A model generated the notes under the pieces. That model saw only the letters and a program-made list of their open reading frames with translations, did not search any database and was not told where the DNA came from. Shown here one piece after another: positions 19,004-64,000 of a DNA stretch of 64,000 nt (positions within the stretch are counted from its first letter, which is position 1; every line of letters starts with the position of its first letter). The DNA is from an uncultured Eubacteriales bacterium (GTDB taxonomy: Bacteria > Bacillota > Clostridia > Christensenellales > Aristaeellaceae). The stretch is taken from NCBI GenBank assembly GCA_900315675.1, contig OMZY01000004.1, forward strand, positions 86,970 through 150,969, in the 5' to 3' direction. Made by a program: the position numbers and the translations under genes.

Positions 19004-19786
19004 ATGCCATTTTTGTATGAAACCCATATGCATACCTGCCAGGCAAGCGCCTGCGGAAAAGCTACAGGAAGGGAACAGGCCAGGGTCTATAAGGAAGCCG
19101 GTTTTACCGGAATCATCATTACGGATCACTTCTTCGGCGGCAATACCGCCGTCAGCAGGGAACTGCCCTGGGAAGAACGGATTGATCTTTTCTGGAAGGG
19201 ATACGAGGACGCGAAGGAAGAAGGAGACCGGATCGGACTGGATGTTTTCTTCGGCCTTGAACAGAATATCCACTTTGATGAATACCTGATCTACGGACTG
19301 ACCAAGGATTATATGAAAGCCCATCCGGAGATGGAGCACTGGACCCGCCATCAGCAGCTGGAAGAGGTTCACAAGGCCGGAGGCTGCGTGGTTCAGGCAC
19401 ATCCGTTCCGCATGCGGAACTATATGGACCGGATCCGGCTGGGACTGAAGTACTGCGACGCCATTGAAGTGGCCAATGCAGGCAACGAACAGCTGGATGA
19501 CGCACGGGCGTGGCTGTACGGGAAGGAGTACGGCCTGCTGATGACCGCGGGATCGGACAACCACTGCGCAACCAACTGGCCGCTGTATGGTGTTGCGCTG
19601 GATCACAAGCTGACCGATATAAAGGATTTCGTCAGCCTTATCCTGGCCGGGAAGCAGATGGAACTGCGGATTCCGGAAGGACGGCTGATCATGCCGGAAA
19701 ACCCGGTGATTGATGAAAGGCATAAAGCTTATATGCTGGATGAAGCGGAACAGGACGTTCCAACGGATAAGGAATGGACGGAATAA
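19004..19786 (+). CDS. PHP-domain metal-dependent hydrolase
   Basis: A 260-residue PHP-superfamily protein with GGAGAAACACC before the ATG. Metal-binding motifs: ETHMHTCQASACG, ITDHFFGG, FFGLEQNIHFDEYLIYG, VVQAHPFRMRN and TAGSDNHC. It is not a second histidinol phosphatase by context: it has its own promoter and is outside the his operon. Stand-alone PHP proteins of this type are thought to hydrolyse phosphoesters of small molecules or nucleotides, but the substrate cannot be read from sequence. A 12-bp hairpin and a hairpin array follow before a convergent gene. Confidence 0.85.
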   Translation: MPFLYETHMHTCQASACGKATGREQARVYKEAGFTGIIITDHFFGGNTAVSRELPWEERIDLFWKGYEDAKEEGDRIGLDVFFGLEQNIHFDEYLIYGLTKDYMKAHPEMEHWTRHQQLEEVHKAGGCVVQAHPFRMRNYMDRIRLGLKYCDAIEVANAGNEQLDDARAWLYGKEYGLLMTAGSDNHCATNWPLYGVALDHKLTDIKDFVSLILAGKQMELRIPEGRLIMPENPVIDERHKAYMLDEAEQDVPTDKEWTE

Positions 19787-19790
19787 AATG

Positions 19791-19818
19791 TTACAGCCGG
19801 GCAGCAGCCCGGCTGTAA
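19791..19818 (+). terminator. Hairpin after the PHP gene, possible terminator
   Basis: A 12-bp perfect GC-rich stem (19791-19802 with 19807-19818), loop AGCA, 4 bp after the stop codon. There is no T-run after it, so termination would be weak. Confidence 0.5.
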
Positions 19819-19825
19819 ATGAATT

Positions 19826-19910
19826 ATTGTCGCAGGCAATATGATATATTGTCTGCGACAATATGATGTGTTTGCCGCAGGCAAACATGATGTATCTGAC
19901 TTTGTCGGAT
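19826..19910. repeat. Tandem micro-hairpin array, four units
   Basis: Four short hairpins in a row: 19826-19840 (6-bp stem, one G-U), 19846-19864 (8 bp), 19870-19886 (7 bp), 19894-19910 (7 bp, one G-U), each with a 3-nt loop (GCA, TGC, GCA, TTT). Centres are 22-24 bp apart. Linkers are near-identical ATGATAT, ATGATGTG and CATGATGT. Stem sequences differ completely between units while pairing is kept. It lies between convergent genes and is not coding. Confidence 0.7.
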
Positions 19911-19913
19911 ATT

Positions 19914-19953
19914 CTAATCAAAAAATCTGCCATGGGCAGATTTTTTTGATTAG
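19914..19953. terminator. Bidirectional terminator between convergent genes
   Basis: Long near-perfect palindrome, 19914-19931 against 19935-19953 with one bulged base; six A on the left and seven T on the right serve both directions. It overlaps the stop codon of the minus-strand phosphoesterase gene. Confidence 0.85.
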
Positions 19954-20615
19954 AACTGGCTGGTTTTCTGCATGAGGCGGATACCTTTGCGGCTGGGCTC
20001 GATACGGTTCGGCGTTTCGGGAAGATCGAACTCATAAGCCATGCTGGCGTTGATGACGGGAATACCGTGCCAGTCACGTTCCCGGATGAAATGAGACCCG
20101 GTGTAGGCCTGATGCACATGACCGTGGACCATGACCGCAGGGTGCCAGGCGTCCAGCAAGGGACCGAAACATTCAAAGCCCCGGTGAGCCAGGTCCTCCT
20201 GGTCTCCGAAACCCCGGATCGGCGAATGGGTCAGCAGGATGTCAAAACCGCCGGTGGCTTTCAGCATGCGCTTATAGGACGCAATGCGGGAAGCCATTTC
20301 CTTTTCAGAGTACATATGCCGGCCATCCGGACGATAACGGATGGATCCGCCCAGACCGAAGATCCGGACTCCTTTGATTTCCACAACGGTGCCGTCGGCG
20401 CACAGGCAGCCTTCCGGCGGCTCGGTCGCATAACGGTCATCATGGTTGCCGTGCACGTAAATAATCGGTGCATTGGTGAAACAGGTCAGGAAGGACAGAT
20501 ATTTCGCGGGGAGATCCCCTGCAGAGAGAATCAGATCCACACCCTGAAGCGCCTGCCGGCAGAGCTCTCCCCAGAGCCGGGGAGAGGGTTCATCCGCTAA
20601 AGCCAGAATCCGCAT
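19950..20615 (-). CDS. Calcineurin-like metallophosphoesterase
   Basis: A 221-residue phosphoesterase. Metal-binding motifs in order: the first motif is unusual, ILALADEPSPRLWG in place of the usual D-x-H; then LILSAGDLP, VHGNHDDRY, LLTHSPIRGFGD and VMVHGHVHQAY. The missing histidine of the first D-x-H motif is typical of a YfcE-like cytosolic subgroup in Clostridia and may change metal use. The start lies 9 bp downstream of the stop of the ParB-like/BMP gene on the same strand, so the two form an operon. Substrate unknown. Confidence 0.85.
   Translation of the reverse strand: MRILALADEPSPRLWGELCRQALQGVDLILSAGDLPAKYLSFLTCFTNAPIIYVHGNHDDRYATEPPEGCLCADGTVVEIKGVRIFGLGGSIRYRPDGRHMYSEKEMASRIASYKRMLKATGGFDILLTHSPIRGFGDQEDLAHRGFECFGPLLDAWHPAVMVHGHVHQAYTGSHFIRERDWHGIPVINASMAYEFDLPETPNRIEPSRKGIRLMQKTSQF

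Positions 20616-63926: not shown

Positions 63927-64000
<74 letters not shown>

Follow-up and report, generated by a model that had tools for sequence, protein, structure and literature searches.

The window, that is, the whole stretch of 64,000 nucleotides that was analysed, carries at 19819-19910 (+) an array of four linker and hairpin units with stems of 6-7 bp and loops of 3 nt, located between a PHP-domain gene (stop codon at 19784-19786) and a convergent metallophosphoesterase gene. Linkers and h3 were assigned from the sequence, h1 from the sequence together with RNA and DNA folds. G000 denotes the genome of the window; the other G and L numbers denote compared genomes and stretches, respectively. 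The parts of the locus are as follows.

19004..19786, + strand: PHP-domain gene, upstream context (PF02811, E 6e-4, below Pfam's cut-off)
19791..19818, + strand: hairpin h0, a 12-bp perfect stem that abuts linker 1, 4 nt 3' of the PHP-domain gene stop codon
19819..19825, + strand: linker 1, ATGAATT, the most frequent linker in G000
19826..19840, + strand: hairpin h1, ATTGTC-GCA-GGCAAT, 15 nt, with one T.G pair
19841..19847, + strand: linker 2, ATGATAT
19848..19862, + strand: hairpin h2, ATTGTC-TGC-GACAAT, 15 nt, an inverted h1 with one difference
19863..19869, + strand: linker 3, ATGATGT
19870..19886, + strand: hairpin h3, GTTTGCC-GCA-GGCAAAC, 17 nt
19887..19893, + strand: linker 4, ATGATGT
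19894..19910, + strand: hairpin h4, ATCTGAC-TTT-GTCGGAT, 17 nt, with one T.G pair and without the usual family tail GTGATAGTTACT
19912..19955, no strand assigned: convergent T-tailed terminator, context outside the element, its stem spanning the metallophosphoesterase stop codon
19950..20615, - strand: calcineurin-like metallophosphoesterase gene, downstream context (PF12850, PF00149)

The original prediction of four hairpins with 3-nt loops and centres 22-24 bp apart agrees with the measured distances of 22, 23 and 24 bp. The size of 15-19 bp given there fits the length of the hairpins (15, 15, 17 and 17 nt) and not the stems, which are 6-7 bp; the stems were called unrelated, which is true in part and fails for h2, given its likeness to h1, and h1 and h2 alternatively fold as one 18-bp hairpin. 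Both h0 and the terminator were absent from that description. An ordinary terminator had been rejected, rightly: the sequence after each of h1-h4 is a linker or ATTCTAATC, and not a T run. The array folds stably as RNA (z = -8.1 alone, -13.3 with flanks) and as DNA (z = -9.2), with 0/200 shuffles equally stable in each case. The window copy is atypical: its linker strand shows c(GCA)g in two of the four loops and T.G in both non-Watson-Crick pairs, ATGATGT is a rare linker in G000, and the tail is absent. At the Rfam gathering score no family was found at the array, the only match in the window (63927-64000, + strand) being to the first part of a 16S rRNA gene truncated by the window end; the 17 sub-threshold matches had a best E of 0.13. 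At the same locus in relatives, G002 has an array as does G000, G005 has a one-hairpin remnant, and G001, G022 and G041 have an ordinary terminator.

Many arrays with unrelated stems exist, as had been anticipated: a strict pattern (two linkers at the right distance) gave 49 matches in the whole of G000 and 39 in the congener G002, against none in reversed controls, and had no match in the 39 other genomes searched. A looser linker pattern matched in 8 of the 45 genomes of the genus (151 times in G002, 87 in G022, 81 in G000, 78 in G041, 74 in G001, 26 in G005, 3 in G004 and once in G060, where the single match may be due to chance) and had 0 matches in the remaining 37; reversed controls gave 0-1 match per genome, with 1 in G000. 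The arrays also exceed resampled sequence when no linker is assumed, in a comparison close to the one by which the original prediction could have failed. In 464 kb of G000, 34 arrays of at least three hairpins were detected de novo, compared with 2-8 in five Markov resamples, which were made from whole stretches and not from intergenic sequence alone. Samples of G002, G041 and G022 contained 33, 44 and 39 such arrays, with 2-3, 2-4 and 3-6, respectively, in five resamples each. The motif RTGAWWT was present at least twice on one strand in 114 of the 150 de novo arrays of the four genomes, and in 24/34 of those in G000. In the array-free congeners G050 and G048 the de novo counts were at about the shuffle level (4 vs 1-2 and 3 vs 0-3, respectively).

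Beyond the genus, an order-wide scan found matches in 49 of 396 genomes, mostly once or twice. The design was read by eye in 8 short stretches of five genomes that had been chosen for several matches (G165, G178, G121, G145 and G306, of families f23, f33, f16 and f10): four units follow h0 in G121 and G306, three units follow h0 in G178, and tail-to-tail pairs occur in G165 and G145. Two stretches of G178 (L382 and L383) hold near-identical elements at different loci, each consisting of h0, three units and a tail that resembles ATGATGGTTAGTAACC; the likeness hints at recent spread in another family. In a phylum sample, 21/398 genomes, G000 included, matched the linker pattern; among the matches listed, no hairpin insert with a G+C stem was seen outside G000, and some A+T-rich inserts (G819, G683) pair partly. 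For other bacteria and for viruses, at least 140 matches were obtained, from 105 contig stretches and 31 viral stretches taken together. At most one mismatch was found in 23 of the 140 inserts, which were mostly short and A+T-rich, the longest stems (L063 and L120) being single inserts, and no hairpin array was seen in the 105 and 31 stretches scanned. Plasmid and phage records gave no match to window positions 19785-19915, and a literature search found no description among the papers listed. The family is real and, within the scope of that search, apparently undescribed.

The anatomy of the element was derived from 151 chains, which contain 508 hairpins (355 distinct) and were taken from stretches of four genomes (145 chains in long stretches) by a linker expression that allowed each hairpin no more than one mismatch. 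Three arrays (those of the window, L221 and L319) were split and counted twice, the window array appearing as two three-unit chains. Four hairpins were found in 86 of the 151 chains, three in 25, two in 37 and five in 3. The linker core is uniform inside 133/151 chains, and the linker tallies of this collection are fixed by the search expression itself. Among the 86 four-unit chains, the final hairpin begins with ATTCG or ATCCG in 58 and often has a 4-nt loop, and the tail consensus of the family is GTGATAGTTACT. Hairpin length ranges from 13 to 40 nt, so the spacing of the units varies. CRISPR repeats of 24-48 bp are described as separated by spacers of regular length (PMC3733652). The array, with its constant part of 7 nt and a variable part that is a palindrome of 13-40 nt, is not of that kind, in agreement with the original prediction. 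Tail-to-tail pairs were also noticed (L312, L348), with exactly 48 bp between the arrays in 3/5 close pairs.

An abutting h0, either perfect or with one mismatch when the stem is at least 10 bp, precedes 55/145 chains compared with 48/2900 random positions, and covers the upstream stop codon in 24 of the 55 cases. Hairpins spanning a stop codon were found at 16/90 array-adjacent gene ends, 51/1568 gene ends elsewhere and 3/292 in outgroups, the outgroup stops having been called by a simpler gene caller than the rest. Perfect stop-spanning hairpins were noted at 56/1651 stops in array-bearing genomes and at 4/324 in two outgroups.

The claim that pairing is kept while stems vary and linkers are held was confirmed on all RTGAWWT-N17-RTGAWWT intervals of the stretches, a set selected by the linkers and free of any pairing filter. 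Of 105 distinct 17-nt intervals, 83 are fully Watson-Crick and 3 are not hairpins. Watson-Crick pairs occupy 696 of the 735 pair cells (94.7%), compared with a mean of 427 (58%) and a maximum of 458 in 500 re-deals of the halves. For 80 of these intervals, pairing was 98.0% versus 70.1 in shuffles, cells changed on both sides numbered 168 versus 46.8 (0/500 shuffles as high), and the covariation score was 0.744 versus 0.176; slid-register controls were 25-39% paired. Two of the five covariation measures were not above the shuffles, namely double-change pairs (6 vs 4.6) and pair types (16 vs 16.6). On the linker strand, imperfect pairs were more often A.C than G.T, 31 vs 13 in one set and 13 vs 4 in the 17-nt intervals, with rows that are partly related; such an excess is expected if the opposite strand folds. 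Stem letters that change freely under kept pairing suggest recognition of the fold together with the linkers, and not of the stem letters, either by the bacterium itself or by a DNA parasite that it carries.

The loops are biased by type and by strand. Read opposite the linkers, the 355 distinct hairpins contain c(GNA)g 115 times against 16 expected and c(GNNA)g 41 times against 6; on the linker strand the same loops are near expectation (9 vs 8 and 2 vs 3, respectively). Loops of the g(CNNG)c type, which are counted on either strand, number 13 against 0.8 expected. GNNA and CNNG are stable DNA tetraloop motifs. The third base of the GNNA loops is a pyrimidine in 28 cases and a purine in 15, which mildly favours DNA. 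PMC5815330 describes c(GNA)g closed by a C-G pair as a stable DNA triloop, with d(GCA) melting at 68.9 °C when closed by C-G and at 48.9 °C when closed by G-C, and also describes the GNA loop-closing interaction as portable between DNA and RNA. Because of this portability, of an excess of RNA-type GNRA loops opposite the linkers (15 vs 5.3 expected), and of two other DNA-loop motifs, cGNABg and cCNNGg, that show no excess among the 355 distinct hairpins, the verdict for DNA is not firm, and the loop bias by itself does not decide for DNA over RNA. UNCG loops number 0 opposite the linkers, which is uninformative because only 0.8 were expected. On the leading strand, the ratio of cT..c to cG..a loops is 166:38 for triloops and 45:8 for tetraloops in arrays, while it is 28:19 and 12:15 in other intergenic hairpins and 9:20 and 10:20 in gene hairpins; the polarity of the array loops is thus lacking from the remaining hairpins of these genomes. 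The window array runs counter to the strand trend in two loops and in both wobble pairs.

The arrays are strongly oriented along the chromosome. With the leading strand taken as the G-rich strand by the GC skew of each stretch, and genes called by a hexamer model, the linkers lie on the leading strand in 125/141 chains; the ratio of leading to other strand is 1165:501 for genes. Sorted by neighbours, the same ratio is 57:0 for arrays in sense between co-directional genes, 37:4 between convergent genes, 20:0 between divergent genes and 9:8 for arrays antisense to both neighbours. A co-oriented gene precedes 101/139 chains, mostly with the first linker at most about 70 nt from its stop codon, and 42/139 chains sit at convergent gene pairs, so that a buffer between convergent genes, one of the roles initially proposed, does not hold in general. 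Replication, more than transcription, sets the direction of the arrays. Since the linkers are on the leading strand, the strand with the stable loops is the leading-strand template, and the simplest IS608-like insertion into the lagging-strand template therefore does not fit. The bias could also arise if very stable hairpins are selected against when they fall on the template of the lagging strand.

Six sibling arrays in G000 (one on C18, five on C36) have hairpins in common and different left flanks, which points to dispersal. Two of the six are without exactly one unit, one shows a paired change of G-C to A-T, and three each have an h0 of their own (at most one mismatch), one of which covers the local gene stop codon. 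Orthologous sites without the array, which fit its loss as well as its gain, were found at the PHP locus of G001, G022 and G041 and for 4 of 21 flank-anchored G022 arrays in the sister species G041. As in mobile, MITE-like repeats, the same element is thus present at several loci with unrelated flanks and is absent from orthologous sites. Terminal inverted repeats or target duplications were not seen by eye at the loci inspected, nor was a clean junction pair. For the other 17/21 anchored G022 arrays, the corresponding site of G041 is occupied by an array too; counted in both directions among the matches listed, same-place arrays number 41/46. Among the matches listed, many of the same-place arrays are identical, some have one hairpin swapped and some are wholly altered.

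In the 17 G022/G041 pairs, comprising 310 base pairs, Watson-Crick pairs had changed on both sides in 4 cases, and single changes numbered 2. Two of the doubles share one hairpin, possibly a swap, and the set excluded hairpins with more than one mismatch, a restriction that favours doubles and perhaps under-counts singles; 7 hairpins were replaced between conserved neighbours. All species pairs gave 20 doubles and 7 singles, but these include double-counted or mis-registered rows (the window array; L221/L319), and only the sister figure is firm. Linkers at orthologous sites differ between G000 and G041 in 21/22 units and are the same in 46/48 units of the sister species. Arrays that are kept in place while their linkers change in concert are as compatible with a function for the host as with a parasitic element. 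At some sites where a relative has an array, (ACTTAAR)n heptad repeats were seen (L309, L310, L352 and others, among the matches listed), sometimes with start and tail letters similar by eye to those of arrays; one kind of repeat may thus take over the site of the other.

A search for Pfam Y1_Tnp in 45 genomes, together with inspection of the flanks of four genes, found no cognate enzyme for the arrays. Y1_Tnp genes are present in 7/8 array-bearing and also in 21/37 array-free genomes. Four of the 22 matches in array-bearing genomes were inspected (L349:11483 and 18051, L319:18636, L198:15448), and none was flanked by an array; these RAYT-like genes have palindromes of their own, of the gaaccgtccc and ggacagtccc kinds. 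A RAYT or Y1 transposase as partner of the arrays is thus not favoured by the flanks, and its presence is weakly associated with them at best.

From these results, we tentatively favour, at somewhat less than an even chance, the explanation that the array belongs to a dispersed, non-autonomous repeat family whose copies are recognised in the form of folded single-stranded DNA. Kept pairing, held linkers, the usual number of four, the type and strand of the loops, the leading-strand bias, the siblings and the sites with and without an array are direct observations. The single-stranded state, the protein and the spread driven by it are what we infer. The element would be about 95-105 bp long and comprise an optional local h0, typically four units of a 7-nt linker (mostly RTGAWWT) and a hairpin, and the tail. 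When the strand opposite the linkers becomes single-stranded, the hairpins would close on the very stable c(GNA)g and c(GNNA)g loops, and the linkers, AWWTCAY on that strand, would remain single-stranded between them. A putative sequence-specific DNA-processing protein would read linker and hairpin shape and carry copies to the ends of genes, with the replication fork determining which way round they lie. Because only shape and linker would be read, the stem letters could drift by paired changes and by the loss or exchange of whole hairpins.

The main and a serious rival, unlikely in our estimate, is that the arrays serve the host as replication-oriented landing sites, a role in line with the landing array of the original prediction. 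The linker would be bound by a DNA-binding protein, and spacing or strand identity would be given by the hairpins, with fork traffic, nucleoid order or segregation as examples of the process served; selection would keep the arrays, and linkers would co-evolve with the protein. The leading-strand orientation, the 17/21 G022 arrays kept at the same place in G041, and a linker core that is uniform within 133/151 chains, different between species and the same in sisters, all agree with such a role. It accords poorly with the patchy distribution over 8/45 genomes, with sibling copies and array-less sites, and with the presence, in related species, of different repeats at several of these sites (among the matches listed); moreover, with hairpins of 13-40 nt the spacing varies and helical phasing is not kept. 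We consider it rather improbable that the arrays act at gene 3' ends as an RNA element, in which the hairpin chain would protect transcripts or terminate them, even though 101/139 chains follow a co-oriented gene, the RNA folds are strong and GNRA loops are in excess opposite the linkers. The RNA element suggested by the original prediction is less supported because the orientation tracks replication over transcription, not only at co-directional (57:0) and convergent (37:4) sites but also at divergent sites, which offer no 3' end (20:0), and because the loop bias lies opposite the linkers, on the antisense strand of most upstream genes; the excess of A.C over G.T on the linker strand and the lack of an Rfam family at the gathering score also count against it.

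It is quite improbable, in our judgement, that the arrays are a purely mutational product, without function or dedicated enzyme, of template switching during replication that perfects and exchanges palindromes. The balance of double and single changes and the 7 replaced hairpins in G022/G041, as well as an h0 that covers the upstream stop codon in 24/55 cases, are what such a process would give; the orthology set, limited to at most one mismatch, itself favours double changes, though, and the held linkers, the usual four, the tail and the loop polarity are left unexplained. The palindrome-making copying process entertained at the outset is conceivable in so far as whole hairpins are swapped and doubles are at least as frequent as singles (4 vs 2, sister species). 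A genome-wide palindrome maker was not supported by the density of gene hairpins, 5.8-9.4 per 100 kb versus 7.0-8.6 in two array-free congeners, which shows no excess.

Bacterial repeats are normally found by sequence similarity, and most of each array copy is invisible to such searches; pairing, linkers, unit number and loop chemistry are kept despite the changing stem letters. The strand-specific loop bias leads to a testable statement, namely that, in living genomes, selection acts on one particular strand in its folded state. Should the arrays be read by a protein, this would be a new system of structure-and-linker recognition; if none does so, they are a natural record of replication rewriting palindromes. 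With still less confidence than in the dispersed-repeat explanation we put forward, as a possibility, that the arrays are a class of repeats whose heritable identity is the fold: four single-stranded DNA hairpins with GNA or GNNA loops, free stems and a near-fixed linker, served by a putative single-strand DNA machine tied to the fork, in several families of one order.

REP elements are described as dispersed intergenic palindromes with a short tag, sometimes as dimers, whose TnpA-REP (RAYT) recognises folded single-stranded DNA in a strand-specific manner (PMC8266576, PMC3733652). The arrays are likewise dispersed intergenic palindromes with a short constant sequence, but typically have four hairpins per element and the linker RTGAWWT where REP has GTAG or CGTC, and their stems are not conserved within one genome (355 distinct among 508 hairpins, four genomes), so the original view that they are not REP stands. 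Integron attC sites are defined by their single-strand fold rather than by stem sequence; unlike at these sites, no gene cassettes were seen at the arrays. The ends of IS200/IS605 elements have subterminal hairpins, strand specificity and a link to the lagging-strand template, whereas the array element is without a transposase gene and its stable-loop strand is opposite to the simple expectation. A further parallel is offered by the heptad tandem repeats of these genomes, which we take to be STRR by name: they share with the arrays a 7-nt unit (ATGAATT or ACTTAAR), an intergenic location and, among the matches listed, some of the same orthologous sites, and differ in having no hairpins between the units.
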